Below are positions 6,576 to 25,299 of a DNA stretch of 64,000 nucleotides, one piece after another. Location: NCBI GenBank assembly GCA_905221615.1, contig CAJNDT010000986.1:1-64000 (forward strand), written 5' to 3'. The position numbers were made by a program, and so were the translations under genes. The stretch is from Symbiodinium sp. CCMP2592. Taxonomy: Eukaryota > Sar > Dinophyceae > Suessiales > Symbiodiniaceae. How positions within the stretch are numbered: the first letter of the stretch is position 1; the number at the start of each line of letters is the position of its first letter. The notes below the pieces were generated by a model. That model did no database searches. It had not been told where the DNA came from and was given only the letters and a program-made list of their open reading frames with translations.

Positions 6576-7509
6576 AACATTGGGGTACCTAACCCAATCC
6601 AGCTTCTCGCTCTAAGGCTCCAAAGGTGTTTTCTGGTCCTATCCACATGCCACTGAATGCCTGTTTCACTGCGTGCTACATGCTGCTACATGCTCAACTG
6701 GTTTGGCGTTTCTGCTAGAGTCATGTCAGCTGCAGAGGCAGGAAGCGACTTTCAATGCTCCATGCGTAGTGGCGTAGTGGTGTCGTTCAGGCGATCAGCT
6801 GCTGGAAAGCACAGCATTTTCCGGCCTCCGTGACCGTGATCACTGTAGCCGAGGTGAGACCGCGTGAGACAAGGGTGAGACATGGTAGAATGCTGAGCTA
6901 TCTCGCAACAGTCATGGTTCCCATGCTGGTGCTCCTGGTGTCCATGCCCACCTGAATTGGCGACAACATGCCGTGACGAACGATTACAGTGGCTGTTTGC
7001 TGATATTTGCAGATCTCCAGCCTTCAAGACGATTCGCCCTGTGGCTTCATCTATTTGGCGTTTGGCTCGAATGAAGGTCCTGGGAAGGCATGTCAGGATT
7101 GTGAGATGAACTTGAAACCGGCTCTGAAGCTCCGCAGCGAAGAGCTTCCTACGCTTGGCCGCAGGACGCCGCAGGGGAATTTACGCCGAGGCACTGTGGA
7201 AAGACGTCAGCACGAGTTTTTGGAGCTGCTTGGACAGTTTCCTCACAGAAGCCAAGCAATCGTCATCGCAGAAAATCGCAGCGCCCTGGGGCCTTGCCTT
7301 GCGGTTCAGCTCCACATGATCTTTCAGCGTCTTCGTGCCTCGAAGCAGCTGCAGTCGGTCGTGCTGGGGAGATCCGCTAGGGTCCCGCACCCTCCAGCCG
7401 CGATGCATGCGTTCGCAGCTTGCCCTGTCATGGAGACGCACATCTTTGCATGCATTAAAGCCGTAGCAGAGAGACAGGGCGAAGAAGAGCTTTCGAAAGA
7501 CTTACAATC

Positions 7510-8900: not shown

Positions 8901-9020
8901 TGGAATCTGTCTGTCTGATACCACGAGCTCATGTGCTGGACACTTGACTTTCCAAACTCGCCAAGACCATAATCCGCCGAGGCCAGAGGCCCAGGCGTCT
9001 TGGGTCTTACCTCAGGTACC

Positions 9021-9021
<1 letters not shown>

Positions 9022-9079
<58 letters not shown>

Positions 9080-9110
9080 CCCCCCCCAAACCCCCCCAAA
9101 CCCCCCCCCC
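9022..9110. repeat. Poly-C tract with interspersed A runs at the element border
   Basis: A run of 56 uninterrupted C (9022..9077) is followed by blocks of 7-10 C separated by AA or AAA. It abuts the 3' LTR exactly at 9110. A second C-rich stretch follows the 5' LTR at 25024 (nine C, then CT-rich). The element therefore inserted into a pre-existing homopolymer-rich tract. Long homopolymers are error-prone, so the exact length should not be trusted. Confidence 0.9.
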
Positions 9111-9358
9111 TGTGCCGATACACCCCCAAGGGATACTCCTTGTAAGGAGGTGTATGACCAGTTATTCCCTAAGGATCAAAGGGCAGCGCCCTGCACACGG
9201 ACAGTAGTTGTTTTGTCTTGCTACGCAAGGAGAGCTTGTCTTGTCTCAATATGGTAAAACCACTGTGAGCCAATGGGCAGCGGAATGTATATGTATGAGC
9301 ATGCAGCCATTGCTGTAGGTACCTGTTAGAGCTACCCCTTTAGAGTTTTATGGTTTCA
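9111..9358 (-). repeat. 3' LTR of the retrotransposon
   Basis: The 248-bp copy is downstream in element orientation and 99.2% identical to the 5' LTR. The hairpin at 9136..9149 has TGTA where the 5' LTR has TGTG, so one of the two LTR differences falls in the loop. The outer end touches the poly-C tract. It should supply the poly(A) site. Confidence 0.95.
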
Positions 9359-9370
9359 AACAGACACTAA

Positions 9371-9380
9371 TTTTCTTTTA
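9371..9380 (-). promoter_or_regulatory. Candidate polypurine tract
   Basis: The sense strand reads TAAAAGAAAA 12 nt before the 3' LTR. It is the only purine-rich stretch near the LTR, but it does not abut it as a plus-strand primer normally does, so the assignment is weak. Confidence 0.3.
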
Positions 9381-9658
9381 CCGGAAGCATGGCCGCACAT
9401 TCACACATATACTGTTATGCCCACTGTCACAGTTGCGGAGTTTGGACTCATTATAAAAACAGCATATTGTTTATGCTAGGTATAGCACTGAAGTACACTG
9501 TTGAGGTCACTCCTTTTGCACACACTCATGCATATTGGTCAGAGAGATCATCTGTACAAGATCAGGTCTGGTAATGTTCTACTACCGAATTATGCAGCCC
9601 TTCATTGTGCTCTTGTCAGAGCCTTGCGATTCACTGTTGTGAAACTCTGAGAATTTTC

Positions 9659-12600
9659 TTATCTCAGATTCGGATCCAGGGTTGGATCATAGGCTCGAGC
9701 ATAGACGTTCGGATGTGGCTCATCCGGGTCTGAGTGATCTTCTTCGGAACTTGAAAAGATTCCGAGTAATCTGTTCTCATCCCTGGTGAAGGCGGCGTCT
9801 GCAGTATCATATCCATGGTTGGATGTTGTCGCCTTTGGCTCGGCCTTTGGAGCAGCTTGTGAGCTGACTGGGGTTGCCTTGGCTTTAGCCGGTTGTGGCT
9901 GCTTAGCCTTTGCCCGTTCAGCCCTTCTTCTTTCAAGCTGTCCGTCTGAGGACGCCCATGATCTTTCACTTTCATCTCCTGAAGGAGATAAGGCGTGGGC
10001 ATAAAGGCTATTCCAGTACTGTTCTGCAGAAGGAGTTAGGACTTCTTCATTGTCAGATTCTGACTGGTCTTCCTCAGAGCTTTGGTCGTCAAAGAGTGTC
10101 TCGAGGACATTTTTGAGATTGTTATTTCTTCGCTCTATCTCTAGTGAGGAATGGACCAATTGGTTAAAGACTGTCCTTGAGTCCTTCAGTGCTGTTAGAA
10201 GTATTTCCACTCTGGATAGAGTATCTTGGATGGTGTCAAGATGTTCCTTCCTTTCCTCCTTGTCTCTCTGGATAGAGCTTCGCAATGATTGTGCGATTCT
10301 GAGGAGGTCTGTGTATTTCGCAAGAGGCATAGTTACCGTTTGATTGTCATGTATGACAGTTGTTTCGTCGCTGCTTAAGTTCCTGAATAGGACTTCCACG
10401 ACTGGTAGGAACTCCGTGCTCCACGGTTCCTCTTCATCATATGTTTCTACGTGCTGTAGAACGCGTTGTGTAAACTGGCCGGCTGCTTCTACCGTTGCAT
10501 CGATAGAGCTGACGTGTCTTGCTACTATGTTTCGGCACGTAACGTTAATTGCCTGGCCTTGATTGGCTTCGTCAAGTGCAGCGTCTGCATAGGTGCAGAG
10601 TCCACTGTTGTGGGCTTCTCTAGCTACCTTTCGTTGAATGCGCCGATTTTGACCTCCTCTTCTGGTAGGACCTTTTGGTCTTGGAGGATCAGAAGGTACT
10701 GTTCCTTTCGCCTTTGGCGGAGGACTCTTAGGTGGAGGTGATATGTTTGCCTTGTTAGGCCCTGGTGGCATTGCCTTGGGCGCTGATGACGATGCGGCAC
10801 TTGAGAGTGCAGATGTACCTCTGGCCTTTGCCGAGGATCCCTTGGGGATCGATGTATAGGTAATCTGCATGGCTTCTTCGGCCATTTGTGCATGCAAGGC
10901 ATCTTTGAATAATTGTGTCATATGAGGAGTGTTACTTGCATCATCGTAGGTCTGGAAGCGCTCAATGTCTCTTTCGGTGCCACGTGGTCGTGTATCACCT
11001 CTTTGGAAAGGATCGTTTCTGCGAATCTCCGCAACTTGTACTGCATGGAGGCAGTTTTTGCACAGCACCTTCTTGCAAACATCTCTTGCTTGCTTGAGCT
11101 GGTAACAGCTGTCTGAGAGATGGTAGACTTCGCTTCGGGAAGTATGCCAGATAGGTCGCAGATCAGTTGTTTCTCCGGAATTGACCCTGTTGGGTCCTAA
11201 AGGTTCACGCGTCTGCGGTTCATCCTCGGGTTCGAGGAATGGAACTCTTTGGTTCGCTGCTGCTTTTGATTTTGGTTGTTGGCGCTCCATACATCTGATA
11301 GGAGGCCTGGTAATCTGCTTCCACATCCAGTGTAAGCCCATTAGCAGCAAGAACACATTCCACGCGATGCTGAAGACGGAGAAGTCCTGCTCACTGGTTA
11401 GTGAGTTTGGAAGTGAAGTTTCATCAGTCTTGATAGACTCTGCGTTTGCTCCACCTCGGTTGCGGTGTCCGAACCAGCCCGACAATCCCGCTGCTGTAGC
11501 AGCTGTTCTGAGTGCCTTGCCGCTCGGAGCAGACGGTGGACGCGATGCCTTCCTTCTTCTTCTCCGGCTGGAGGATTCGTCCTCTTGTTCCTCTTCATCT
11601 CTCTGAGCAGACATCAAGTTTGATGTTTCTCTTTCGTGTTCTTCGATGTCACTTTTTGTTGGTGACGGTTCTTCTTCTAGTCCATCCAGCTCTTCCAAAG
11701 ACATGTTGAGCTTGTCAACAATATTGGTTCTTTGAGGCCTGGACCTTGATCTTGGTAGATCTTGTTGTGAAGAGGACGATGATTCCTGGTTCCTTCTTGG
11801 AGGAGGACCTTCAGGCTCGCTGGGACGTTCAGGCTGTGGCCACTCCCAGAATCTTCCATATCTGTGATGGCTACCTGATGGTTGCGATTTGTCGTACCAG
11901 CTGTTGCCGGATGAGTAAACGAATGAATCGTTGTAACCCCAGTATTCAGCATTACGCTGCTTGTAAGCCTTTCGCTTGTCAGCGATCTTTTGGACCTGGG
12001 CATCTGACCGGTTGTGTTTCCCTTTTGTAAGGATTGGTTGTATCGTGAAGCCCAAAGGGCTGTGCCAATCTTTGTCAGTGGGACTCAACCATAGGTCAAG
12101 GTTAGAAAAAGTTGAATAGTACTGCTTGACTGAGACAAACAGACGGATATCAATATCCCTGTTGTTGTTCGTGTCCTGCCACATATCTGAGATTCGCTCC
12201 CAGTATGTTCTTTCGCCGGCAGGTGTGACCTCTCTTGGACTAGGTGACGCCGTGTGCGGCGTTTTACTCCAGTCAAGGATATAACTGTTGATACAGTCAA
12301 GGTCAGCAACTTTCTTCGCCGGGTCCGCCGGTAGACGATCTGCACGTGCCAGTCTGTGCTGGTCGGAGTTGTTCAAGCAAAGATGTCGCACTTGTGAGTT
12401 CCTTCCTGCTATTTTGTTGAATGCTGCAAGTTTCTTCTCCAGGTATAGAGAAAACAAACTGTTTCGCGGGTGAACGTCTCCACCTTTTAAGGTGAGCCTC
12501 GACGCAATATTATTGAGATCTCCCGCTATTACATCCGGTTTAAAAGGGAGAATCTCGTTGAGGAACGCGTTCACCAGTTCGCGTCTCTGTTCTTCCTTAT

Positions 12601-15600
12601 GAGTCATGAATGAGTTGAAATGGACGATCGCGATGGTGATGACCTTGTAAGGCCCTTTTGTACACCACATCTCGTCAAGATCGTTCGATGCTTCTTGTGA
12701 GAAGATCTCTGCGTATGACTCAAAGTCTTTTTCTGGTGGCTCATCACCCTCGACATGGCCGTTCCATTCACAGAGAATCGGCGAGGGGTCGAGGTTCGAC
12801 AGTGTCAGGCACGCCTCTGGTGAGAGGTAAGAGCCATCAGTGGGTCCATCCTTGTCAGGATTTTTGCCCTTGAGTGGGTCATATCCGATAATCTGCATGA
12901 ACTCGTCTCTCGTCATCCTTTGGCCAGAATATGGGTGGACCCATTCTTTTGCCTCCGGGATGGTACTGTGGTACCCAAAGGTGAGGCGGCATACCGCACC
13001 GTGGCATGCCCACAGTCGCTTCTTGGGACCACCATTCTTAGGTTTCATTGTTCGATGACGATAAAAGTGGTGGACGAGAGCGATGTCTGTTGTTGGGTCA
13101 CCCTTGACTCCAATATACATCGAGGGTGCCTCAGGCTCCTTGGGAGGAGAGTGGATTAGCATCCCCCTGTATTCATGTTGTCGCATGGTTGCGATCGAAT
13201 ACTCTGACGCAAGTGCTCCTGCCTCGAGTACGAGGGTAATATGAGCTGAATTGTTGAAGCACATGTCAATAAGAGGGTGATAATCGAATCCCTTCTCAGG
13301 TTTGAGCTTCTTTTTGGGATTCCCTGCGGGCACCGGCGCTCGATCCATATTTCCCCAGTTGAATACCACTAGGTTTAGCGATACGCTGTCTGGGTTTGAG
13401 CCTTCAATGTATTCTCTCTTCTCGTTAACACCGGCCATCCTATTGCGAACTATCTCGTAATGTGCGTCGAGCACCAGTTTGTCTTCGTAGCCAGTAAGAG
13501 AGAGAAAAGAAGCCGGGTGGCTTGTTCTAGAGTCCTTGATATTGATGTGACTCTTGTTAATGCTCTTATATTCCTCCAGGGTTGGAGCCTCTGTGGAGCT
13601 GTCATACGTATTCGGAGGATTGTTCCTAATATCATCAAGGCTGCATGGATCAACGCCTGGATGGTCCTTTTCGAACAGACTTCTTGCGTGGTCGCAATAC
13701 ATGTTGATTTTCTGGACTGCCAAATCTACGTCCTCATGTGTGAGGATGGCCTCGTATAAAAACTGACGCTCTTCTGAGGTCATTCCTGCTCTCACTTTGG
13801 AGGTCTCAAGGCAATCGATTGGCAAGACGCACTCGCACATCCGTTGTTTACCCTGTGGGGTAAGTCGACAGTCTGCACATACAATCGTTCCACAGGAATA
13901 GCAAAAATAGCCTGTAGGCTGTTTGCAGAGATCGCAGAGAGGATTGTCTGGTCGAGGCAACATTCGTATCCTTTGGTTAAGGCTCATGGCTGTCCTGCGT
14001 ACTCCTACAAATCTCTCCTTGTTAGGAGGTGCAGAGGAGGAAGATGCCGACTCTCTGGGTCTGTCCCACTCCTCTTCGTCAGGAGCCTCAGAATCTTTGA
14101 TCATGAGTGGACTTCGGATTTTTCGATTCCATCGACTAACCCAGATTCTCTCTTGCATTTCCTGTTGCATAGCCGGGTTAGACGGTGACTTCGAGATTCG
14201 GTGCTTGGTATTTTCTCGAATTCGAGCGCTGATGCGCTCATGTTCTCTTACGAGGTCTTCCTCATCAGCAGGCTCCTCGTATTCGAGGTTGAGCTTGCTT
14301 CTGTTGACTCGATAATAGGTTTCTGTTTCAGGATCGAAGAGAACTAGGAATTTTTCCTTCTCCTTTTTAGGAGATTTTGGTTTTCTTGGCTCTTCGTCTG
14401 AGCTCTGAACATATTCTGTTTCAGGCCTTGGTTGGTCAAGTTTGACCTTCTCAAGTTTCTCTGTGATCTCTTCCGTGGGAGATTCTTTCTTCTCCTCTGA
14501 CGCTGCAGGTGCTGAGTTCGTCTTGTGAGACGGATTAACATCAACTCGGAGTTCTGAGGATGACGAAGATTTTGAACTCTTTTCGCTCTTCTCGCTCTTT
14601 TCGCTTGATGCAGACTCAACGTCTGATTCTTCGTCACAATCCTGGTTAGGATCTGGTTCCTCAGGTTCCGTCTCTGTTCCAGAAGATTCTTCCTTGGGAG
14701 GAACTACATTGGCAGAAGTATCCTGAACAGGTTCTGGAGGTTTGTGACCTGTCGTTATCTTAAGAACTTCAGTGGCGCTTCTGGTGCCGTCGGAGTTCCA
14801 GAGCTGTCCCATAAGACTGTCCGGATCCTTGTCGGCCTCGGCCTGCCGGGCGAGCTTGGATCTCGGATGGATCTCCTTTGCAGTAGTCTCCGTTTTCGGA
14901 GGTACTTCACCTGCAGAAGCGGTTTGCTCCAGGTTTGGAGCTGTGTCAGCCTCTGTATTTGGCAGAGAGAAAGACTTCTTGTGAGAAGATCTAGCCTTGG
15001 GAGGCTCTGGAGGCAGATTTCGCCTTGACATCTTGCGAAGTGTCGATTCGATCTCTTGGCCGTAATTTGAGCACCATTTCTTCGACTCGTAAGTCGCTGA
15101 CGGCATCTGTTCGGAGCAGTGGTCTGCCCACCATGGTCCGATGCTCTTGAGCTCATCGTATTGCGATGATACCCAGAGTGTTTCAGAGGGTGCAAATACG
15201 GCGCTAAGAGTACGGGCATGCACTACCTCTGGTGTAGCAAACATCCCTGCTTGCGACTGCCACATGTTTGTGACTTCGTTCACTACGTTATTTGCGTCGA
15301 ATACTAGAAGCAGTGCCTTGTTGGCACGCAGCAAAGTCGGATTAGGATTCGCCAGGTTTAGCGTTGAAAACTGAACAGTGTCCCTGTTGGAACGACTGTT
15401 TTCATTCACGAGAGCTTGAAGACCTGGTGAGGTAACCACCTGCGATAGGAGGTTTGATGGTACCAGACCATGCCTCAGGATTGAGGATAATGCCTGTAAG
15501 TCCGTGGCATGCATGATGTAACAAGGGTTGTTCTGTCGAACAAAATCTTCCATGCCTACGGGCCTTGGCGCGTTAGTGGAGAGACGCTGTGCATGGGACT

Positions 15601-16582
15601 GCACAGGATTGCTCCCCGTTGCCATGAAGTCTGAGATGGTCATGTGTGACCTTGGCCTCTCTTCTTCAGGATCTGGTTCTTCAGCTCTTGGTAGAGTTCG
15701 TCGTGAACCGTGTCCTCCCACTGCCGAGAGGAAAAGTTTGGTCATGGTCAGCACATTTGCATCCGGTGGGATGGTAACGGCGGCATCTGTTGTTTCGGCC
15801 TTGCCATCTTGGTTATAAACCATAGTGACCACGAACCTGGACTTAGTGTTAAGGAGGACACCAAGCGCGATCTCTTGTGGTGTATACTGTGCGAGCTCTG
15901 CATCGGCCAACTTGGACATGTCCAGAAGATAATTGTGTTGGCCAGCAAAGAGATCTTGGCGCTGGTTCTGAAGGTGTCTTGTTGAGTGTGCCAACCACCT
16001 TCCGACTCTGTTGGTCTTGGAAAGAATGTGGAAGCACATCTCTGGTGAGAGACCTGTTACCTCTACCAGTCTTGGCACTGAGGAGGAATAGTCATATTCT
16101 CCAGATGCATCAAGACTCACACATTGTTTTACCTCCTGTGGGAGGCCAGTCTGAAGGTGATGTGCAAGCATCGTACAAAACTGGCGTGGATCACGAGCGT
16201 GATTACCCACGTTGTTATCCCAGTATAAAAGGGGACTGTTGTCCCATGGTCCTTGAAGGACTCCTTCGTAGAGCCTGACTCCATGTCTGGAGATTGGAGT
16301 GAGCCTTGCTCGACTCGCATGGCCACATCGTAAGATCAGGTCAGCAAGATCTCTTGGACGCGGATTGAACACCTGTTGGTGACCCATGTAAATGTATGGA
16401 GGCTCGTTATTTTTCTCACGTTTGTGAAATCGATGTCCACCGTGTTCGGTGTGTCGACGTGATGCTTCCCGACGAGACTCGGGGTAAGAGCTATCCATGT
16501 GTGGATGTCGCTCATGGTACGCCTGTACTGCCCTGGGTAGGGCGTGTCCATCACGGCTACGGAAGTTTGATCGTGTGCTCAT
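9659..16582 (-). CDS. Retrotransposon ORF3: 2307-aa multidomain protein with KptA/ART-like and EEP nuclease-like domains
   Basis: This uninterrupted reading frame starts at an ATG after the Pol ORF and ends with TAA. Visible modules: residues 60-270, an unrecognised globular region; 340-480, a KptA/ADP-ribosyltransferase-like domain (YIMHATDLQALSSILRHGL, then VQFSTLN, LLLVFDANNV and GMFATPEVVHARTLSAVF); 500-860, a disordered Ser/Glu/Lys region; 883-918, a Cys-rich zinc finger (CDLC, CYSC, CADC, CEC); 1067-1515, an endonuclease/exonuclease/phosphatase fold with Glu1120, His1321 (VHFNS), GDLN at 1354-1357 and DWHSPL at 1505-1510; about 1735-1755, a hydrophobic membrane segment (FSIAWNVFLLLMGLHWMW); 1812-1845, a Cys/His cluster (YHLSDSC, then CKKVLCKNC); then a basic/acidic coiled tail. 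No retroviral Gag, Pol or envelope family matches. The frame has stayed open over 6.9 kb, so it is presumably under selection. Its function is unknown to me. Confidence 0.85.
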   Translation of the reverse strand: MSTRSNFRSRDGHALPRAVQAYHERHPHMDSSYPESRREASRRHTEHGGHRFHKREKNNEPPYIYMGHQQVFNPRPRDLADLILRCGHASRARLTPISRHGVRLYEGVLQGPWDNSPLLYWDNNVGNHARDPRQFCTMLAHHLQTGLPQEVKQCVSLDASGEYDYSSSVPRLVEVTGLSPEMCFHILSKTNRVGRWLAHSTRHLQNQRQDLFAGQHNYLLDMSKLADAELAQYTPQEIALGVLLNTKSRFVVTMVYNQDGKAETTDAAVTIPPDANVLTMTKLFLSAVGGHGSRRTLPRAEEPDPEEERPRSHMTISDFMATGSNPVQSHAQRLSTNAPRPVGMEDFVRQNNPCYIMHATDLQALSSILRHGLVPSNLLSQVVTSPGLQALVNENSRSNRDTVQFSTLNLANPNPTLLRANKALLLVFDANNVVNEVTNMWQSQAGMFATPEVVHARTLSAVFAPSETLWVSSQYDELKSIGPWWADHCSEQMPSATYESKKWCSNYGQEIESTLRKMSRRNLPPEPPKARSSHKKSFSLPNTEADTAPNLEQTASAGEVPPKTETTAKEIHPRSKLARQAEADKDPDSLMGQLWNSDGTRSATEVLKITTGHKPPEPVQDTSANVVPPKEESSGTETEPEEPDPNQDCDEESDVESASSEKSEKSEKSSKSSSSSELRVDVNPSHKTNSAPAASEEKKESPTEEITEKLEKVKLDQPRPETEYVQSSDEEPRKPKSPKKEKEKFLVLFDPETETYYRVNRSKLNLEYEEPADEEDLVREHERISARIRENTKHRISKSPSNPAMQQEMQERIWVSRWNRKIRSPLMIKDSEAPDEEEWDRPRESASSSSAPPNKERFVGVRRTAMSLNQRIRMLPRPDNPLCDLCKQPTGYFCYSCGTIVCADCRLTPQGKQRMCECVLPIDCLETSKVRAGMTSEERQFLYEAILTHEDVDLAVQKINMYCDHARSLFEKDHPGVDPCSLDDIRNNPPNTYDSSTEAPTLEEYKSINKSHINIKDSRTSHPASFLSLTGYEDKLVLDAHYEIVRNRMAGVNEKREYIEGSNPDSVSLNLVVFNWGNMDRAPVPAGNPKKKLKPEKGFDYHPLIDMCFNNSAHITLVLEAGALASEYSIATMRQHEYRGMLIHSPPKEPEAPSMYIGVKGDPTTDIALVHHFYRHRTMKPKNGGPKKRLWACHGAVCRLTFGYHSTIPEAKEWVHPYSGQRMTRDEFMQIIGYDPLKGKNPDKDGPTDGSYLSPEACLTLSNLDPSPILCEWNGHVEGDEPPEKDFESYAEIFSQEASNDLDEMWCTKGPYKVITIAIVHFNSFMTHKEEQRRELVNAFLNEILPFKPDVIAGDLNNIASRLTLKGGDVHPRNSLFSLYLEKKLAAFNKIAGRNSQVRHLCLNNSDQHRLARADRLPADPAKKVADLDCINSYILDWSKTPHTASPSPREVTPAGERTYWERISDMWQDTNNNRDIDIRLFVSVKQYYSTFSNLDLWLSPTDKDWHSPLGFTIQPILTKGKHNRSDAQVQKIADKRKAYKQRNAEYWGYNDSFVYSSGNSWYDKSQPSGSHHRYGRFWEWPQPERPSEPEGPPPRRNQESSSSSQQDLPRSRSRPQRTNIVDKLNMSLEELDGLEEEPSPTKSDIEEHERETSNLMSAQRDEEEQEDESSSRRRRRKASRPPSAPSGKALRTAATAAGLSGWFGHRNRGGANAESIKTDETSLPNSLTSEQDFSVFSIAWNVFLLLMGLHWMWKQITRPPIRCMERQQPKSKAAANQRVPFLEPEDEPQTREPLGPNRVNSGETTDLRPIWHTSRSEVYHLSDSCYQLKQARDVCKKVLCKNCLHAVQVAEIRRNDPFQRGDTRPRGTERDIERFQTYDDASNTPHMTQLFKDALHAQMAEEAMQITYTSIPKGSSAKARGTSALSSAASSSAPKAMPPGPNKANISPPPKSPPPKAKGTVPSDPPRPKGPTRRGGQNRRIQRKVAREAHNSGLCTYADAALDEANQGQAINVTCRNIVARHVSSIDATVEAAGQFTQRVLQHVETYDEEEPWSTEFLPVVEVLFRNLSSDETTVIHDNQTVTMPLAKYTDLLRIAQSLRSSIQRDKEERKEHLDTIQDTLSRVEILLTALKDSRTVFNQLVHSSLEIERRNNNLKNVLETLFDDQSSEEDQSESDNEEVLTPSAEQYWNSLYAHALSPSGDESERSWASSDGQLERRRAERAKAKQPQPAKAKATPVSSQAAPKAEPKATTSNHGYDTADAAFTRDENRLLGIFSSSEEDHSDPDEPHPNVYARAYDPTLDPNLR

Positions 16583-16805
16583 TACGGCACGATGACCAAA
16601 CAGGATCAGGAATGCTTGTTTAGCTCAAAGGCTGGTTGCTGTGAGGCTCGAGGCTGAAAGCGGCTGCGGATGATACAGAACATATAGTTCTCATGAACAT
16701 GTCCGATCTTGATGAAAACGCAGCTTGCAGACACAAATTTTCTTTTAGACGAAAAACAGTCTAAATAGAAAATCCAGCACATGGTTGTGCTACCAGCAAA
16801 CAAGA
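16583..16805 (-). other. Gap between ORF2 and ORF3
   Basis: These 223 nt separate the RNase H stop from the ATG of ORF3 at 16582. No frame is open across them. ORF3 must therefore be expressed from a spliced or subgenomic RNA, by reinitiation or by internal entry. Candidate acceptors (TTTCAG, CTCACAG in sense, around 16630..16660) exist, but nothing decides. Confidence 0.5.
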
Positions 16806-19800
16806 CTACCACCATGTTCCTTGGCAGTAAAATAATCGGTAAATCTCTGTTGAGACATCAATTCCAAGGAAGGCTACCGCTGTAGCGGCATTCTTAAGGT
16901 TGTCTATGATCCACCGAACAGTGAAAGCTTTATGTTGAAGAAGTTCACGGAAGGGTGGATGAATGTCTGTTTCTGGTAAATTTCCTGTTTCCAGAGCCTT
17001 GATAAGCTCATCAGGTTGCGCCGAATGCTTTGTTAATGCATCAGCTAGGCAGTACTTCGAGCTTACATGAGCTAGGTCATCTAAAGATCCAGAGTTGGAT
17101 TCCTTACGAAGCATCTGTATAAGATGGTGAGTTTCCTTCTGCTCTGGAAGGTGTGTCGTGCCTGCTGTTGTCACAAGATTGTTCGCATCTGTTCTGATAT
17201 GTATGGGTACGGTCTCTGATGAGAGATCTGCCCAAAGTCCCTTGAGGAACAGGCAAGTACCAAAGCAACGCATCAGTGCGTTAAGCTCTGCCACTGTTGT
17301 GGACATTGTGGTTGTCGTAATCTTGTGAGACTCGTAATCCACCAGGCTACCTCTCGAGGATGTTTCCTTAATAGAGGATTCAGAGAAATCGTTCTTCTTG
17401 GAAGAAGCAGCTGCTGCTGATTGTTTCATTCCCTTTAGCTTTGGATTTCGATCTTCAGCAAGGAAAATAACATGTGCTCTCTGAGATGATTTGTCATCAT
17501 TGTTCCTGTAGGAAGCATCAGGGTAACCGAGGATTCTGAGATTTCCTTTCAGCGGCCAAAAACGCAATTCTACTTCGGTAGACTTCAAAATCCTAACAAG
17601 CTTGTTCAATTCTCGAATATCACCGATAGTAGGCTTGGCAGCCTTGCTCGCACACCGACTGAAGCGATAACAGATGTGAGCTTGAGTCCGGCTTTGTAGC
17701 CAGTTGATCTGTCCTAAAACACTTCTATAAGCAGTGTGCTGCTGTGGTGTGCATTGTTGCTCATTGTTGAGCTTCTTGTCAAAAACAATTTCTTCTAGAG
17801 CTTCAACAGCTAGGTTCTGATTTACTGAGATATGTGCTGGCACTGATGCTGTAGCATCCTTCCAGACTAATCTCTGTCCTACAAACATGATATCATTCGT
17901 GTCTTCAGAACCTACTGCAAATTCCTTTTTGATCGATTCAATCACGGCCTTACGAAAGGTGTCATCACCGGCCATGCACAGGTCATCTACATGCAAACAG
18001 ACTACTCCATGTACCTGTCTACCCTTGGCATTGTTGCCTGCTATGGGATCTAGGAGATAGTCAATCGCTGATTCCATGGTCTTTGGCTGAGACTTCTTGA
18101 GCTCAGCATCTGCTGTTGCAGACTTCTTACCATACAGAACATATGTACAGCGATCCGCACGGGTTGGCACCAGGCCATAAGACAGGAGTGCCTTATCAAC
18201 GATGTTCCACCATCTTCGAGGTGCATCGTTAAGTCCATAAGCGGGTTTCTTCATCCTCGCTGCAATGTAGGAAGGATAACCTGCTTCAGGAGGAATCTGA
18301 CAAATTATGTCTCTCGACTCATCATAGGCTTCACCCTGCAGGAAAGCAGTCTTTAGGTCGATGTGTGTCAGATTCCACAGCTTGTTAGCTGCTAGTTGAA
18401 TCGCTAAGCGGAAACCTGGGCGACTCGCAGCAGGACTATCAGTTTGCTGAATGTCCTTCTGTCGATCCTGGAAACCTCTCAGGACCCATCGGGCCTTGCA
18501 CTTAAGGAAGTTTCCGTCCTTGTCTCTTTTTAGAGTCAGGACCCATCGACCAGTGACATAATTTCGGATGTTTCCGAGTTTCCGTGTATCGACGAGCTCA
18601 AAGACATCATTGTCTAGCCAGCTCTGATATTCTGCTGCTTTCGCTTCATCAAACTGTTTCTTCATCTCACGCTTTTCCTTGGCGGTTGCCTCCTTCCGCT
18701 GTGCCTTCTGGGTTAAATTCGCTGAGTTCCTGGGGGAACTTAGAGATAAGGCCTTGTCCTCTTCCGTGATAAGATCGTACTCTTCACGAATGTCAGATCG
18801 GAACCTTTTAGTGGGTTTATACCGTGTTCGGTCTGACCTCACTCTTGATGTTACCTCTCTAATGTCTACGGGTCCGCCATGCATGTACCGAGGCATGGAG
18901 AAGGAACCTGTGTTACTGCACAGTTTCTGTTCTTCTGTGAGAAGGACCCAGTCCTTCTCATCTACGACCAAGTCACCTTCCTCATCAGAGTAATACCTTG
19001 TGTTTTCTGACTCGGCATCGCTCTCCGGTTCTGGTGAACCAGAAGTGTGAGGAGGAGCGGACGGTTGTCCGGGGTCGTCTGGGACCAGTTCTTCTTCAGT
19101 GTCTTCTTCATCTTGTTGTAACGGAAGAATGGGTCCCTGTGGATGTGCCTTCGGTTTAGGTTTTGGTGTTGGCACCTGTGAAGGTGATTTCTGTTTGTGT
19201 GGCGAAACTTTCCTTTCCGATGAAGACCTTGGCGACACATCACCCCCCAGACGCCGAGGAGACGGAACGCGAGGAGGCGGATGCACGCGAGGCTTAGCCC
19301 GAGCAGGAGCCACGGGCTCATCGGAGGAAACGGCCGGTAGTCGCGGTGGAGGTATGGGAGGAGGAGGACGCGACGGCGGCGTGCCGGGAGGCATCGGCTG
19401 ATCTGGTTCCGGCATAGAAACATCGTCAGATGTGATCCGTGAGCGATTAGTGCTCATTGGTTCCGACGGGTCTGACGGCGAAACCTCTTCGTCCGACATG
19501 ATTACATCCGGCGGTGTTCGCACGGACGGTGAAGTCTTGCCGCCTGTCATCTGGAATAGCACCCCCGAGAAGGTTGATGGGTGTACTTTGTTCCAGGAAA
19601 CCTGGTGCGGCAAGCAACACGTCATAGTCGAATTGGGCTTCTTCTTGTTCCAGAAGACAAGAACGCCATCAGTTACACTGGTGAGTGCTTTAACTGTTCC
19701 AAATGTACCTCTGTATAGAGTACACTGTTCGAAACCAGACCCTGGTAAGAGTCTTGATCTAAGGCGAGTAATGTCTGACACCAAGGCATCAAGGGACGGT

Positions 19801-20945
19801 GATGGTTTGGAATGATGCAATGGTAATTCAGTTTTACTCGATAAAGAATTTACTCTAGCAACAAGTGATCTGATTTTCGGATCTTGCAGGAGTTTTGAAT
19901 CCTTGAGAGGATTTGTTGTCAAAAGAGAATACTCCTGATCAAGAAGTTCCGAAAGTCCCTGGAGGCATTCATCTCCAGAGTATTCTAGTATGTCTGTGAC
20001 TAAAGACAGATGAGATGCATACGCATCTCGTTTCAGGAATCTTGCCAAACACGAGGCAAAGGTCTCACAGAATTCATAAGGATACACTTGTGCGAGTTTC
20101 GTTTTAAGACCGTAGCCTTGAATACCCTTTTCGTCTCCTGGTGGAGATGTTGGAGATTTCGTTTTGGCAGAATGCCTCTGGAGAGGAATTAAAACTTGCG
20201 GTGGCAAGTTGTGCATAAAAATCGAGGATTTCGATTCATAGTATCCTTTTGGATCTTTCATGCCATAGGCCTGTAGGTTACAGACCTCATAGCTGATCTT
20301 ATGATTAGAAAACAGGCGTTTTGCCTCTGGTGAAGACCAGAGCCTGCTGTAGTATGGGTTCTCAAGAACAAAGTAACGTCCGAGCTTCATTTGGTGGTCT
20401 GCGACCGATTCACAGAATTTTAAAACAGAAAGTCTCTTGGCAGAGCCTTTCTTCCACTGTGAGTACCAGCTAGACCACTGAGAATGGTCCGGTGACATAA
20501 CAATAATAGTAGGTTCTTGTTCCTTGATGATCCTAAGAAGATTGGAGCGACCTTGCGGTTGCTCAAGATCTAGACCGCTACGCAAATCGACTGGCTGACC
20601 TACTCGAAGACCTGACAGGGCAGCTTTGTGACTCATGCGGGGAGATCCGCCGTAGAGTTCTAGGAAGTCAATCTTCCCAGTGCTGGTGACCTGCCAGTGA
20701 CACTCTTGATGTGGAATCGTTAGGTCTGTCGACTGTAGGGAGGCATCGAAGGTGACCATGCAACTTGCGTGGTCAGAACCTTCTGACGTCAGAGTTTCCT
20801 CATCAGGCGCGAGAGGAATCTCCACATCAGATGTTATGTCATAATTTTTCCTCAGTTTTGAGATATTAACGCGGACGATGCGTGTTCCAAGATCCACACC
20901 TACCATGGATCCTCCGAGTTCGGAGATCACCTTCCTTTTAGCCAA
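16806..20945 (-). CDS. Retrotransposon ORF2: integrase tail, methyltransferase-like domain, reverse transcriptase, RNase H
   Basis: About 1379 codons in the -1 frame relative to ORF1. There is no ATG at the beginning (the first in-frame start-like codon is TTG; the first Met is residue 14), so translation probably continues from ORF1. Residues 5-35 complete the integrase C-terminal domain. Residues 91-300 resemble a C5 cytosine methyltransferase: FLELYGGSPRMSHKAALSG fits the SAM-binding motif I and FVLENP fits the ENV motif, but the catalytic PC is absent (SPDHSQWSSW). A Pro/Ser-rich linker (470-650) follows. Reverse transcriptase spans about 770-1040, with Asp863 (DLKTAFLQG), GLNDAPRRWW at 904-913 and HVDD at 985-988. 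RNase H follows, with Asp1143, Glu1220, Asp1253 and Asp1302 (ADALTK). All RT and RNase H catalytic residues are present. Confidence 0.93.
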   Translation of the reverse strand: MAKRKVISELGGSMVGVDLGTRIVRVNISKLRKNYDITSDVEIPLAPDEETLTSEGSDHASCMVTFDASLQSTDLTIPHQECHWQVTSTGKIDFLELYGGSPRMSHKAALSGLRVGQPVDLRSGLDLEQPQGRSNLLRIIKEQEPTIIVMSPDHSQWSSWYSQWKKGSAKRLSVLKFCESVADHQMKLGRYFVLENPYYSRLWSSPEAKRLFSNHKISYEVCNLQAYGMKDPKGYYESKSSIFMHNLPPQVLIPLQRHSAKTKSPTSPPGDEKGIQGYGLKTKLAQVYPYEFCETFASCLARFLKRDAYASHLSLVTDILEYSGDECLQGLSELLDQEYSLLTTNPLKDSKLLQDPKIRSLVARVNSLSSKTELPLHHSKPSPSLDALVSDITRLRSRLLPGSGFEQCTLYRGTFGTVKALTSVTDGVLVFWNKKKPNSTMTCCLPHQVSWNKVHPSTFSGVLFQMTGGKTSPSVRTPPDVIMSDEEVSPSDPSEPMSTNRSRITSDDVSMPEPDQPMPPGTPPSRPPPPIPPPRLPAVSSDEPVAPARAKPRVHPPPRVPSPRRLGGDVSPRSSSERKVSPHKQKSPSQVPTPKPKPKAHPQGPILPLQQDEEDTEEELVPDDPGQPSAPPHTSGSPEPESDAESENTRYYSDEEGDLVVDEKDWVLLTEEQKLCSNTGSFSMPRYMHGGPVDIREVTSRVRSDRTRYKPTKRFRSDIREEYDLITEEDKALSLSSPRNSANLTQKAQRKEATAKEKREMKKQFDEAKAAEYQSWLDNDVFELVDTRKLGNIRNYVTGRWVLTLKRDKDGNFLKCKARWVLRGFQDRQKDIQQTDSPAASRPGFRLAIQLAANKLWNLTHIDLKTAFLQGEAYDESRDIICQIPPEAGYPSYIAARMKKPAYGLNDAPRRWWNIVDKALLSYGLVPTRADRCTYVLYGKKSATADAELKKSQPKTMESAIDYLLDPIAGNNAKGRQVHGVVCLHVDDLCMAGDDTFRKAVIESIKKEFAVGSEDTNDIMFVGQRLVWKDATASVPAHISVNQNLAVEALEEIVFDKKLNNEQQCTPQQHTAYRSVLGQINWLQSRTQAHICYRFSRCASKAAKPTIGDIRELNKLVRILKSTEVELRFWPLKGNLRILGYPDASYRNNDDKSSQRAHVIFLAEDRNPKLKGMKQSAAAASSKKNDFSESSIKETSSRGSLVDYESHKITTTTMSTTVAELNALMRCFGTCLFLKGLWADLSSETVPIHIRTDANNLVTTAGTTHLPEQKETHHLIQMLRKESNSGSLDDLAHVSSKYCLADALTKHSAQPDELIKALETGNLPETDIHPPFRELLQHKAFTVRWIIDNLKNAATAVAFLGIDVSTEIYRLFYCQGTWW

Positions 20946-20975
20946 GATCCATGTTTGGACCCAGTGGATCCAATC
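20927..20975 (-). other. -1 frame-change window between ORF1 and ORF2
   Basis: ORF1 ends with TGA at 20927..20929. The ORF2 frame is open only after a TAA at 20976..20978, so any -1 shift must occur in these 49 nt. The window holds CTAAAAGG in sense (A run at 20936..20939); reading CTA-AAA, a tRNA-Lys could slip back one base and re-pair with AAA. It is not a standard XXXYYYZ heptamer. The alternative is a one-base contraction of an A5 run, by mutation or sequencing error, because the integrase domain reads through smoothly if one A is added. Confidence 0.6.
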
Positions 20976-23900
20976 TTAGACTTATCTTCTGACCAGTAGA
21001 AAACCTTATCTCCCAAAGAGAAAGGTCCTTGGGTCATTGACAGTCTGGCTGCAAGATCTCTACGCAGATCATCAGATTGGCGTGCCTCTTGGTAAGCCCT
21101 GTTGGCAAGCTCCTTAATGGCTCTCGCAGTGACTTCCGTATCAGTTGGATTACCTGTCAACTGATTGGGATCAGCGTTCTCTGGTGTTATAACATCTCGA
21201 GGACGCCTTCCAAAGGCCATTTCTAAAGGAGTAACTCCTCCGTAGGTAATCGAAGAGTTTCTTGCCAAACATGCTTGGCGAACGAGGTTGCCATACTTCA
21301 TGGTGATTCCGTTATACTGCGGGTCACCATCCTTCAGGATCTGAAGTATGAGCTTAATCTGATGCTTCAGCAATCTTACAGCAGCTTCGGCCCTGTTGGG
21401 CCATGGTGTTCCAGGTCCTGTTGCCACAGGCTTGATATTCTGCCGATTGTAATAAGCCTCCATTTTTGGAGTCATGAATGCTTGATCTCCAACTACAACC
21501 TTTGGGTTGATCTGAAATTTCTCAAAGTAGTCATTCATAATCGACATTGTAGTATGTTCTTCTTTATCCTGGACTACTTCGGCAGTCAACAAGTTTGTTG
21601 CTCCATCATAGAGAATAAGAAATACTAAGCGACTATCCTTGCCGGGAATTGGAAGCTCACCGTGATCTACGAAGGTGAGATCACCGAAAGTCTCTGATCT
21701 TAAACCAGAAATCTTCGCTCTCGAAGGAGCTCTCACATGTTCCTGGCAGGCTGAACACTTTTTGACCAGTTGGTCATATAGCTCGTAGATCTCCTTTGGG
21801 ATCTGTAAGGCTTTTGTGCGTCGCTTGAACTGATCCGTACTCATATGACGGTGCTTAAGGTGAAGCTTATAGAGTTCTACAGGGTCCTTAAGCTTCTCAT
21901 GAATCCTGCGAAGAGCAATGGGAAGAGATGGCGAAGGTTCTGCGACAATCTCTTCACCTGTAGGTGAGTCTGTACCAGGAGCCGGGTATTCTCTTGACTC
22001 AAGTGGTCTTACCTCCGTCCCGTCATCAGCTCCTGGGACCTTAGACTTCTCTTCAACAGGAGGTTTAACCGCATATTTGCGGGATTTCTTCAGAAGGTTT
22101 TTAAGACCCTTTGGAGTCTTTATCTTCGCAGGTGGGACCTCAAGTCTTTCTTCTTCTGGAGGTTCATGTGGTGCAGAGGATTCTGCAGGTTTGTCCCTAG
22201 AGCCTGATGATGGTTCCGATGGTCCAGAAGGCTCAGGAACATCACCAGATGATTCTGGTGGATCAAGTTTCTTGGCAGATGATTCTGCCGGATCATATGG
22301 AAGAGGCTTCTTTTTACCTGAAATCCTCTTCGGTGGTGGATCAGCTGCTCCCTCAGGTGCTTTGTCACAACCCTTAAGGTACGTGTGAGCCCTTTTCTGT
22401 CCGGCACAGGCTGGACAGCGACCTTCCGGTATCCTAGTATAAGGCTTATTGGCTCCTAGAGCAGTCTCCGTCGCACTGAACGACGTACCTGACTTAGGGA
22501 GATACTTCCTGGTGGAAGTAAAGCCTAGAAGGTCCAATACCAAATGGTTATTGGTACTAATCGGAAGAGGGGTTTTATACAAACCGAAAGCTTCACACGT
22601 TGCTAGGTCAGCTGTGGGACTACACTCGAGGGTCATTCTTAGATTTCTCATCTGTTCAATGGAGAACAAAATGGGAACTCTCCCCTGATCCAGAACTTCT
22701 ATGGTTGTATCTCTTCTTGGAGTTGTGTTGAACCATAGAGTTACACGCTCCTTGATAAGAGCTGTTTCACTATCTGCGAAAGAGAACTTCGTGTTCGAAG
22801 GTGAAAAGGTGAAATCAATCATGCCTGGGGCATGTTGCTTCACGGCCTTGATAAGCCTGTTCACCGCATAGCGGGAACCCATAGCCCTAGTACAACCAGA
22901 GTCAAGTATGACAAAGGTAGGGCTCTTATCAAGATTGATCCGCTCTGTGAGAGCAGATAGGACGGTGTGCTGCAACGGAAACACTGCTGTTGCAGTCTCC
23001 ACACCTTGCCCCTCGGATGGTTCAGAGACCTGGGGCACGTAACTCACTGATGAGTTGTACACGGGTTCTTGGTGCGCGCTCGGATCTGTGCCTCTACCTG
23101 ATGATCCTGCTTGATTTCTTCTCTTCTTTCTCCGTGTCTTTCTTCGTGAGGCTTGTGATGCATAGTATGTATAAGACGTTTGATCGTCATAAGCGGCATA
23201 ATTCCAACTGGAGTCAGTATAATAACTGTCCTCATACCATGAATCCCAGCTCGGTGCGGTGGAACTTTCATAGGCCTGTGGAGATCCAGTTTGGTCTCCT
23301 TGTAAGGAGGCAGACTTAGCTGTATCCTTACCTTTGCCTTTTGATTTTGTACCCTTGAAGGAGCTTCCTTTATCTCCTTTGTCCTTTCCTTTTCCTTTGC
23401 CTTTTCCACCTTTTCCTTTTTCTTTTCCTTTACCTTTACCGAAATAGCTGGAATCAGTTGGATCATGTTCTGCCTGGTTGGCTCTCCCTTTTCCGCGGTA
23501 TGACCTAAAACGGCCACGTCCTTTTCGCTTGCCACCCTTTGCTCTTCCCGGTGATCCGGGACGCATTCTTGGTCTTCTTCCCTTTTTGAATCTCCTTGCA
23601 ACGAAGGCTTCATGGTCGTCAACTGTCCAGAAGACAGCTTCTTCATCCTCGGCGGCAAGAAAGCCTTCCTCAAGGGTGTCTTCGTCTTGGAGCCAGAATC
23701 CATCGACTCCGTCGTATTCACCCTGATCGAGGATGAGGAAGTTTCGACCTCCGCGTTTGCGGCGTTGGTCTCTCCTTCCATGGCGGTCCTTCTTGTGAGA
23801 AGAGTGCCGAATGTTGGGATCCTGCAGACCAGTTCTGGTCGTTGAAAACTGATCGAACATGGTCTGCCGTACCACAGGGTACGTATAGGTCTCAATTCGG

Positions 23901-24673
23901 TGACCTTGGTTGGTCAATGCTGTTACCAACCTCTCACGTTGCATCTCATTTAGGTCGGACTGCACTAGGAAGAGAAGAGCTAGGAGATTATCATTTAGAG
24001 GAAACGCTCTTCGATGATTATCAAGGCGTTCCTTGTTCCATGTTTCGAAGAAACGTGCGGCGTATGTGTCTCTCTCGGTTGCATCCTGTAGGCGCAAGAA
24101 GGTTTGATCTGCCTGCACAGCCTGCATGAAATCTGGATGGGCATCTTCCAGAGCTATCTCTGGTAAGAGATCCATCCATGAGTTTTTCACGCGCTGTAGC
24201 ACGATCTCAAACTTAGCAATCCAAGTCACAAAGTCTTGGTTGCCCTTCCATGCCTTGAATAGGCCGAGGAAACGCCACAGGAAAACATACTGTTCTCCTT
24301 TCACGAAAAATGGACGCATCTTCTTCTTGAAGTAATCTACTCCATCTGGGGCTGCAAGCCTTTCTCGGTTAAGTGATTCTTTTTGTACTGCGGCCAATCC
24401 GGAGAGCCTCGTCTTGAGAGACGGACCTCTTTTGGTGTCATCCAGCGTTGTTATGTCGCACCAGTCGTCAATCAACTGTTCATACTCAAACCACGAGGTG
24501 GTGCCATCATAGGCAGGCGCGATCTTGGGCGTTATGCCTAATGATGCAAGCATGCGGTCAGATGTTGCATATGACTGTGCGACATAAGTAGCTGGACCTT
24601 GGGAGGTCTCTTCGTTCTCATATCCCCCGGAGGATTGGGAACTGCCGTCGGCTTCGCTATGCGAGCTCGACAT
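20927..24673 (-). CDS. Retrotransposon ORF1: Gag, protease, most of integrase
   Basis: The 1248-aa polyprotein starts at an ATG about 100 nt after the 5' LTR. Residues 1-300 form a helical Gag-like region. Residues 360-450 are very basic and Gly/Lys-rich (repeated GKGKGK), apparently replacing the CCHC zinc knuckle of usual nucleocapsids. A Tyr/Ser-rich segment follows. The aspartic protease motif ILDSGCTRAMG has its Asp at 591. A Pro/Glu-rich linker (770-920) leads to the integrase, with an HHCC-type zinc module (H938/H941 region, C973, C976) and catalytic Asp1003, Asp1063 and Glu1096; 32 residues lie between the last two, slightly fewer than the usual 35. The ORF stops within the integrase C-terminal domain (GDKVFYWSED), which continues in the -1 frame as ORF2. 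No internal stops occur, so the protein is probably functional. Confidence 0.93.
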   Translation of the reverse strand: MSSSHSEADGSSQSSGGYENEETSQGPATYVAQSYATSDRMLASLGITPKIAPAYDGTTSWFEYEQLIDDWCDITTLDDTKRGPSLKTRLSGLAAVQKESLNRERLAAPDGVDYFKKKMRPFFVKGEQYVFLWRFLGLFKAWKGNQDFVTWIAKFEIVLQRVKNSWMDLLPEIALEDAHPDFMQAVQADQTFLRLQDATERDTYAARFFETWNKERLDNHRRAFPLNDNLLALLFLVQSDLNEMQRERLVTALTNQGHRIETYTYPVVRQTMFDQFSTTRTGLQDPNIRHSSHKKDRHGRRDQRRKRGGRNFLILDQGEYDGVDGFWLQDEDTLEEGFLAAEDEEAVFWTVDDHEAFVARRFKKGRRPRMRPGSPGRAKGGKRKGRGRFRSYRGKGRANQAEHDPTDSSYFGKGKGKEKGKGGKGKGKGKDKGDKGSSFKGTKSKGKGKDTAKSASLQGDQTGSPQAYESSTAPSWDSWYEDSYYTDSSWNYAAYDDQTSYTYYASQASRRKTRRKKRRNQAGSSGRGTDPSAHQEPVYNSSVSYVPQVSEPSEGQGVETATAVFPLQHTVLSALTERINLDKSPTFVILDSGCTRAMGSRYAVNRLIKAVKQHAPGMIDFTFSPSNTKFSFADSETALIKERVTLWFNTTPRRDTTIEVLDQGRVPILFSIEQMRNLRMTLECSPTADLATCEAFGLYKTPLPISTNNHLVLDLLGFTSTRKYLPKSGTSFSATETALGANKPYTRIPEGRCPACAGQKRAHTYLKGCDKAPEGAADPPPKRISGKKKPLPYDPAESSAKKLDPPESSGDVPEPSGPSEPSSGSRDKPAESSAPHEPPEEERLEVPPAKIKTPKGLKNLLKKSRKYAVKPPVEEKSKVPGADDGTEVRPLESREYPAPGTDSPTGEEIVAEPSPSLPIALRRIHEKLKDPVELYKLHLKHRHMSTDQFKRRTKALQIPKEIYELYDQLVKKCSACQEHVRAPSRAKISGLRSETFGDLTFVDHGELPIPGKDSRLVFLILYDGATNLLTAEVVQDKEEHTTMSIMNDYFEKFQINPKVVVGDQAFMTPKMEAYYNRQNIKPVATGPGTPWPNRAEAAVRLLKHQIKLILQILKDGDPQYNGITMKYGNLVRQACLARNSSITYGGVTPLEMAFGRRPRDVITPENADPNQLTGNPTDTEVTARAIKELANRAYQEARQSDDLRRDLAARLSMTQGPFSLGDKVFYWSEDKSKIGSTGSKHGSWLKGR

Positions 24674-24753
24674 TGTGCTGCCTCTTATCCGCTTGGTTAA
24701 GCGTTCGGCGAGGCCGACCGCTGTAGCGGACTTTGTGAGGCGGGCGGCCCTTT

Positions 24754-24769
24754 CCGGGCTCCGCTACCA
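24754..24769 (-). promoter_or_regulatory. Probable primer-binding site for a tRNA
   Basis: Six bases inside the 5' LTR the sense strand reads TGGTAGCGGAGCCCGG, complementary to a tRNA 3' end finishing in CTCCGCTACCA. The pattern resembles initiator-tRNA primer sites of copia elements (TGG followed by an AGC-rich stretch), but the tRNA cannot be identified without the host tRNA set. A 6-nt gap to the LTR is somewhat wider than usual. Confidence 0.7.
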
Positions 24770-24775
24770 GAAAAC

Positions 24776-25023
24776 TGTGCCGATACACCCCCAAGGGATA
24801 CTCCTTGTGAGGAGGTGTATGACCAGTTATTCCCTAAGGATCAAAGGGCAGCGCCCTGCACACGGACAGTAGTTGTTTTGTCTTGCTACGCAAGGAGAGC
24901 TTGTCTTGTCTCAATATGGTAAAACCACTGTGAGCCAATGGGCAGCGGAATGTATATGTATGAGCATGCAGCCATTGCTGTAGGTACCTGTTAGAGCTAC
25001 CCCTTTAGAGGTTTATGGTTTCA
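24776..25023 (-). repeat. 5' LTR of the retrotransposon
   Basis: The 248-bp terminal repeat is upstream in element orientation. In sense it begins TGAAACC and ends GGCACA. It differs from the other LTR at 24809 and 25011 only. It contains a hairpin (24801..24814, stem CTCCT/AGGAG around TGTG on the plus strand) close to its inner end. It should carry the promoter and transcription start, but I see no clear TATA box. Confidence 0.95.
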
Positions 25024-25299
25024 CCCCCCCCCTCCACCCCCCTTACCCATTCTCCTCGCACTTCGTATCAACAACCGTGTAAAGGTTGGGATCGACTGCC
25101 TGCCGCTACACAGCCGAGGCGGGCGGCGTAGCGTTAAAATTAGTCGAAACTCTTGCAGATGCTCTCTTGAGAATTCTTTTTTTGGGTCTGCGCCCGATCC
25201 TGAGGAAGGACAGGGAAGGGGGGGTGGGGGCAGGGGCACGGGAGCTGGCTGCGGGAGGCCAATTTGCTGGGTTGCCGTCGCGCTTCCTGTTGCCAGGTG

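Follow-up and report, generated by a model that had tools for sequence, protein, structure and literature searches.

A field of small hairpins, 94 of them perfect with 5 bp, a 4-nucleotide (nt) loop and C at loop position 3, was found at 9136-24814 (minus strand) in a Ty1/copia-type long terminal repeat (LTR) retrotransposon of the dinoflagellate Symbiodinium sp. CCMP2592. The element occupies 9110-25023 (15,914 nt) of the window, that is the whole 64,000-nt stretch of contig CAJNDT010000986.1, and is transcribed from the minus strand; coordinates refer to the whole stretch and hairpin sequences are written in the sense of the element RNA (minus strand). The repeated unit consists of five pairs, a 4-nt loop near (A/C)ACA, a C-G second pair counted from the loop and an A two bases before the stem. 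Comparison with relatives of the same genome shows that selection preserves the structure of these units and leaves most letters of the stem free to vary. With a probability of about 0.5, they may form a series of sites at which a protein encoded by the element, most likely Gag, would bind the genomic RNA and guide its selective packaging.

Abundance of the hairpins

Perfect stems of 5 bp or more that close a 4-nt loop number 126 in the element, where about 15 are expected from base composition and 21 at the host rate. The 94 with C at loop position 3 (C-loop hairpins) compare with about 4 to 9 expected by chance in the three open reading frames (ORFs) under dinucleotide and codon shuffles, and no GNRA or UUCG loop occurs among the 126. 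The host part of the window (48 kb) shows no comparable tetraloop excess. In the element, loop sizes of 3, 5 and 7-12 nt stay near the host rate (at most 35 against 28.5), and hairpins with loops of 2 nt (35 against 20.5) and 6 nt (44 against 20.2) are up about twofold. A second, hexaloop class was considered and rejected, since the loop-6 excess at 4-bp stems arises mostly from the tetraloop hairpins, their closing pair being taken as part of the loop; after removal of such overlaps an estimated 68 against about 44 remain. The element has the following parts:

24775-25023, minus strand: 5′ LTR (RNA sense), 249 bp, from comparison of the LTR pair
20927-24673, minus strand: ORF A, 1248 amino acids (aa), Gag with a Gly/Lys-rich stretch (by eye), then an integrase-like region (weak rve match, below cut-off)
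16806-20945, minus strand: ORF B, 1379 aa, copia reverse transcriptase (RVT_2, E 1.5e-17)
9659-16582, minus strand: ORF C, 2307 aa, weak Tpt1/KptA-like region and weak B-box-like zinc site (Pfam matches below cut-off), highest hairpin density
9110-9358, minus strand: 3′ LTR, 249 bp, from comparison of the LTR pair

In 200 codon-preserving shuffles per ORF the observed totals were never reached: ORF A has 28 hairpins (shuffle mean 6.6, maximum 14), ORF B 29 (6.6, maximum 12) and ORF C 62 (9.1, maximum 17), and 7 more lie in the 1.1 kb of non-coding element. Chance and composition were thus rejected, as base-composition, dinucleotide and codon-preserving controls were all exceeded; the codon-preserving control had been proposed in a preliminary description of the same DNA.

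That description had reported at least 14 hairpins of 5-6 bp around a TGTG loop (CACA in the RNA) between 9136 and 24814, running from the 5′ LTR through all three ORFs on one strand. The census returned exactly 14 such perfect stems, with none closing CACA on the plus strand and neither kind in the window outside the element; 11 lie in ORF C and one each in ORF A, ORF B and the 5′ LTR. Further hairpins with related loops, put there at about 20, do exist and number 31 (AACA 11, ACCA 8, ATCA 6, CACC 4, TACC 2). Taken by itself, the CACA-loop excess is borne out in ORF C (11 against 0.16, maximum 2) and fails in ORFs A and B (one each, with shuffles reaching 2). Its arguments against duplication and against a protein motif agree with the data: 91 distinct 14-mers and 73 distinct stems occur among the 94 C-loop hairpins, and the hairpins occupy all three codon phases. 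The C-loop hairpins (14 bases each, minus strand) start at the following positions:

9136, 9474, 9609, 9630, 9674, 9811, 9853, 9975, 10209, 10345, 10797, 11183, 11224, 11391, 11426, 11490, 11612, 11748, 11972
12248, 12284, 12691, 12814, 12848, 12931, 12962, 13136, 13181, 13222, 13510, 13574, 13684, 13732, 13849, 14015, 14225, 14434, 14519, 14639, 14690, 14927, 14975, 14993
15083, 15473, 15529, 15638, 15760, 16039, 16132, 16232, 16279, 16438, 16493, 16530, 16777, 16873, 17394, 17631, 17730, 17845, 18109, 18378, 18564, 18726
19027, 19030, 19058, 19899, 20134, 20195, 20309, 20912, 21161, 21389, 21417, 21587, 21763, 21954, 22173, 22245, 22275
22505, 22787, 22983, 23296, 23547, 23789, 24022, 24157, 24410, 24595, 24690, 24801

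Composition of the unit

CACA is the commonest single loop, and the family as first described had to be widened to an NNCA/NNC class with the second stem pair and the upstream A as further parts. Among the 94 C-loop hairpins A stands at loop positions 1, 2 and 4 in 48%, 60% and 69%, C being next commonest and G rare; 70% have C-G as the second stem pair and 53% an A two bases 5′ of the stem. The last two features recur in the related loci L039 (81% and 58%) and L040 (81% and 63%) and are also seen in L042. At NNCA loops pairing is raised at stem positions 1-5 and little further out, and 65 of the 1355 NNCA sites of the element carry a perfect 5-bp stem. Bulged stems gave no clear excess (one-base-bulged six-pair stems at 14 of 4735 NNC(A/C) sites against 37 of 14226 control sites, in three elements with the bulge bases pooled), and a lower helix beneath the stem was rejected, no clear pairing signal being present in 257 hairpins. 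The Rfam search returned one match of 25.3 bits against a gathering score of 100, and the PDB search also gave nothing useful.

Conservation in relatives

Loci L039 and L040 belong to the lineage with ORF C (69% and 68% DNA identity to the window element) and hold 84 and 83 unit-class hairpins in 8 kb each; L042 (77%) holds 74 in 8 kb and the near copy L041 (96-97%) 87 in 9.9 kb. The density in the diverged relatives L039, L040 and L042 (67-78% identity) is therefore similar to or above that of the window element, and in ORF pieces of three relatives the hairpins exceed codon-preserving shuffles.

Of 64 window hairpins aligned to L039, 38 are still paired there, 30 of them with an identical stem and 8 with a changed one; the figures are 30 of 57 (8 changed but paired) for L040 and, for C-loop hairpins only, 27 of 44 (6 changed but paired) for L042. 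Stems of loop sizes 2, 3, 5 and 7-12 nt were kept in L039 at 0-33% on 3-13 cases each (5 of 74 overall), and the 8 of 15 kept at loop size 6 are probably mostly the same tetraloop hairpins viewed from outside. Aligned stretches contain 82 of the 94 C-loop hairpins, and for 51 of these one or more relatives have a paired stem in the corresponding position. Watson-Crick changes on both sides of a pair, counted from the window, number 11 (L039), 10 (L040) and 10 (L042), against 0-3 in controls with the 3′ arm displaced by 1-3 bases; counted from the hairpins of the relatives, the numbers are 13, 10 and 10 against 0-4, and between L039 and L040 3 against 0-1. Third codon positions are 78% identical to L039 within stems (190 sites) and 44% elsewhere (2019 sites; p 1e-19), and 75% (173 sites) against 45% (1909 sites) for L040; in stems of other loop sizes the identity to L039 is 0.49 (175 sites). 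The preliminary claim that structure is kept while sequence changes is upheld by these compensatory changes and constrained third positions. The CACA-loop hairpins and two examples of compensation, all on the minus strand, are as follows:

9853-9866: CAGCT-CACA-AGCTG, paired in L039
12248-12261: CGCCG-CACA-CGGCG, paired in L039 and L040
12691-12704: CTTCT-CACA-AGAAG, paired in L039 and L040
12962-12975: GGTAC-CACA-GTACC, unpaired in L039 and L040
13732-13745: CCTCA-CACA-TGAGG, paired in L039 (loop GTGA there) and L040
13849-13862: TACCC-CACA-GGGTA, paired in L039 and L040
14519-14532: CGTCT-CACA-AGACG, unpaired in L039 and L040
14975-14988: CTTCT-CACA-AGAAG, paired in L039, L040 and L042
15638-15651: GGTCA-CACA-TGACC, paired in L039, L040 and L042
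16132-16145: CCTCC-CACA-GGAGG, paired in L039
16493-16506: ATCCA-CACA-TGGAT, paired in L039, L040 and L042
17730-17743: AGCAG-CACA-CTGCT, unpaired in L042
23789-23802: CTTCT-CACA-AGAAG, outside the alignments with relatives
24801-24814: CTCCT-CACA-AGGAG, in the 5′ LTR, outside the alignments with relatives
15083-15096: compensation, CGACT-TACG-AGTCG; L039 has TGACC-CACA-GGTCA
15529-15542: compensation, TGTTC-GACA-GAACA; L039 has CGTCC-AACA-GGACG

Gaps are rare at the window hairpins (1 of 65 sites against L039, 8 of 65 against L040), so hairpins appear to be gained and lost mostly by substitution. Palindromic insertion elements are found in coding genes, for example in Rickettsia, as hairpins inside open frames that arrived as inserted units. 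The window hairpins also lie in open frames, but the relatives mostly align without gaps, and a mobile palindromic insertion was rejected as their source.

Distribution among copia loci

The comparison set comprised 37 other copia loci of the same 1.1-Gb genome, each a piece of 3.6-5 kb (L009-L038, with reverse transcriptase about 23-30% identical, and L056-L062), drawn from the 150 best RVT_2 matches of 5766 candidates; megablast links of 500 bases or more sort them into nine groups. Hairpins that unite all three features, loop C, second-pair C and upstream A, number 39 in the window element, 29 in L039, 26 in L040 and 17 in L042; there are none in the 37 other loci or in the sister family L043/L044. 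Loop-C hairpins amount to 5.8-7.8 per kb in the lineage and 0-1.1 in the other loci.

A different motif in the sister family

The reverse transcriptase of L043 and L044 is about 47-49% identical to that of the window element, and the two loci are 99.6% alike over 6.4 kb. No NNCA loop occurs among their 28 and 23 tetraloop hairpins. L043 carries a stem-loop of its own, in 13 copies over 9.9 kb (sites 847-9553), which reads, with some variation, GG, three bases, C-NNNN-C, loop UCAN, G-N′N′N′N′-G, three bases, CC. On scanning with fixed positions, at least 11 of 15 being required, all 13 sense matches in L043 had the four free pairs matched and two antisense matches had one; in L044 eight of nine matches had four and the ninth one, with matches elsewhere in the window at 0-3. 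All 104 pair cells of the 13 L043 copies are standard, with 25 both-sided changes, and the covariation of 0.718 exceeds both that of shuffles (0.199) and that of slid controls (no more than 0.25), for a motif that was chosen after paired examples had been seen on listing the L043 hairpins and whose structure was derived from the same sequences. Outside the unit the copies are unrelated in sequence (28% identity). Two copies lie in a tandem repeat and 12 of 13 stand in one codon phase, so in-frame insertion or a peptide constraint may contribute to this motif, and Rickettsia-type palindromes may be nearer to it. Single matches in each of three viral contigs were taken as chance.

Level of action

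Where one of the five pairs departs from Watson-Crick pairing, RNA tolerates G-U and not A-C. For (A/C)(A/C/T)CA loops the ratio of G-U to A-C was 29:13 against 37:67 for control loops (Fisher p 4e-4), pooled over four elements which are kin, so that the cases are not independent. The preference for RNA over DNA voiced in the preliminary description gains from this excess, and action of the unit at the RNA level is favoured on the pattern of substitutions. Among predicted local structures of the element RNA, tetraloop hairpins number 182 against 74 (mean of five shuffles) and five-pair helices beneath tetraloops 68 against 11.

Comparison with known systems

In phage MS2 the translational operator and its dispersed packaging signals are described as short stem-loops with loop xxYA and a 5′ A, in many degenerate copies (PMC6281560). 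Loop and 5′ A of the window unit run parallel to this, but the A of MS2 is a 5′ bulge whereas ours lies one base below an uninterrupted 5-bp stem, and host, element and proteins are unrelated. The account of satellite tobacco necrosis virus (STNV) gives degenerate AXXA stem-loops, about 30 in a genome of 1.2 kb (PMC3593212). They share with our hairpins a common loop motif atop stems of free sequence; the loops in that account have 4-6 bases and a measured coat-protein preference, whereas the window loops have only 4 and are known from sequence. Many stem-loops with a common loop motif (94) and evolutionary conservation of the structures are features of dispersed packaging signals that were found here.

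The Gag of Ty1 is reported to bind a 5′ pseudoknot, palindromes and sites close to the primer and cyclization sequences (PMC4974528, PMC8396678). As in Ty1 and Ty3, the genomic RNA of an LTR retrotransposon would be bound by Gag, putatively in our case, but the sites described in these sources are not a hundred dispersed units. Copia elements, the superfamily of the window element, are the most abundant retrotransposons reported in Symbiodinium (PMC5890265), in the same host group; the words hairpin and stem-loop do not appear in the main text of that paper. In titles and abstract openings of the open-licence literature no report of such hairpins in a retrotransposon was found.

Proposed role and alternatives

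We propose that one element-encoded protein, most likely Gag, would read the loop together with the upstream A, that many such sites in a row would let it pick the element's own full-length RNA, and that the same protein would condense this RNA and nucleate the particle, in the manner of the dispersed packaging signals of several small RNA viruses. In its sharpness the unit resembles a protein footprint: loop letters and second pair are fixed, and an A lies upstream. It extends over coding and non-coding RNA and is confined to a single one of the lineages seen, which suggests that the reader is encoded by the element and meets the RNA many times; the different motif of the sister lineage fits with this. 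With MS2 and STNV as analogues, Gag comes first among the candidates and the ORF C protein second. A broader proposal, which we hold tentatively, is that each related copia lineage in one dinoflagellate genome marks the full length of its own RNA with a structural code specific to that lineage (A-N-5 bp-(A/C)ACA here, GG-3x3 loop-6 bp-UCAN in the sister), code and reader co-evolving so that each element packages its own RNA although thousands of copies compete.

Several observations weigh against packaging by Gag as the role of the units. ORF A has no zinc-knuckle match in Pfam, and the 94 hairpins show no regular spacing, their distances being near random. As 26 of 64 hairpins lack full Watson-Crick pairing in L039, single sites seem dispensable. 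When single lost pairs are counted, the G-U to A-C ratio between relatives is 14:9 with both directions counted (background 460:565); for L042 it is 2:2 and 6:2, and with the near copy L041 0:1, a weak trend that goes mostly in the same direction as the pooled data. Other copia loci have hairpin excesses of their own over codon shuffles (12 loci by 8 loop sizes scanned), the largest for tetraloops being 12 against 4.3 (L059), 11 against 4.5 (L060) and 10 against 4.2 (L061), with triloops at 10 against 3.9 (L056) and 4.3 (L058), heptaloops at 10 against 3.5 (L057), pentaloops at 8 against 2.6 (L037) and stems with 6-nt loops in the ORF of L009, another copia family, at 12 against 2.8 and with no clear shared loop motif; none of these includes the full unit. 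The element RNA also has structure beyond the units, since 120-nt windows without C-loop hairpins remain more stable than shuffles (z -1.27, n=19; -1.35 with them, n=29), as does the element after scrambling of the hairpin arms (-1.00 against -1.38 intact); it may thus be organised in several structural layers. The Tpt1/KptA-like domain was set aside as the reader, the sister family having it but not the A-N-5 bp-(A/C)ACA unit, so this shared domain is not an obvious partner of the motif.

That the reader is the ORF C protein instead, with its zinc site and large conserved domain, serving for example RNA export, protection or movement, appears rather unlikely. Hairpin density does peak in ORF C, few relatives of ORF C were found, and nothing matching it turned up in 9.9 kb of L043, a locus devoid of the unit; but the correlation comes from two lineages only, the L043 stretch ends inside its downstream ORF, and the B-box match is below the cut-off. 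A host RNA-binding factor, or shaping of the mRNA for translation, stability or escape from silencing, would account for the mRNA sense of all CACA-class loops (14 against 0) and for an element RNA more stable than shuffles beside host DNA that hardly is (z about -0.05 against dinucleotide shuffles, other copia loci being intermediate at -0.81, -0.71 and -0.40). It is an unlikely explanation, given that the 48 kb of host sequence has no comparable excess, that 37 copia loci sharing the host lack the full unit and that the sister lineage uses another motif.

General genome-scale RNA structure, with tetraloops preferred for stability and no specific reader, is improbable: it agrees with the z of about -1.3 in 120-nt windows, also where C-loop hairpins are missing, but rules of stability would not call for a limit of five pairs, for C as the third loop letter, for C-G at the second pair or for the A upstream, and neither GNRA nor UUCG loops occur among the 126. 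A cause at the DNA level, by cruciforms or by copying errors of reverse transcription that perfect short palindromes, could explain why perfect stems at NNCA loops (65) far exceed one-off stems relative to chance. We judge it very improbable, as it conflicts with the strand-specific loops, the compensatory changes and third-codon constraint, the G-U excess, gains and losses mostly by substitution, and the absence of the unit from the other 37 loci.

The element and its insertion site

The two LTRs are 99% identical, with 2 differing sites. The rve match lies at residues 1001-1090 of ORF A (E 0.014), in the right order before the reverse transcriptase and with a score below the Pfam cut-off, as is that of the B-box in ORF C. 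The best 40 of 766 candidates in a genome search with the element DNA, own locus included, are all 99-100% identical over about 2 kb. Proteins of Symbiodinium sp. CCMP2592 match ORF C at 96-97% over 22-28% of its length; relatives from Symbiodinium or unnamed sources number 4 for the whole of ORF C and 5 for its central region. A search of viral contigs with ORF B gave no relative.

Residues 870-1560 of ORF C (11903-13975) are conserved, and GDLNN with its neighbours recalls endonuclease/exonuclease/phosphatase enzymes by eye, with no Pfam or PDB match. A region like Tpt1/KptA (RNA 2′-phosphotransferase) is present in the downstream ORFs of both copia lineages, scoring barely above the cut-off in L043 (7384-9900; 26.4 against 26) and below it in ORF C and in L040 (PTS_2-RNA, E 2e-4).

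The check for a target-site duplication showed C runs on both flanks of the element. C-rich tracts adjoin it at 9101-9109 and 25024-25032 and also adjoin, at the low-coordinate end, all seven other readable copies (L045-L048, L050-L052), one of which has a small deletion at the LTR end, while an eighth stretch was masked; this suggests insertion into poly-C/poly-G runs.

Significance

The case for dispersed packaging signals has been made in small RNA viruses, as a rule on several tens of degenerate sites. The present element, a eukaryote retrotransposon, shows about 100 sharply defined and covarying sites in its sequence alone. The sister family offers a natural motif swap, with which recognition of RNA at many sites would become testable by means of short oligonucleotides, and the system might reveal how an element selects its own RNA when many relatives are present.

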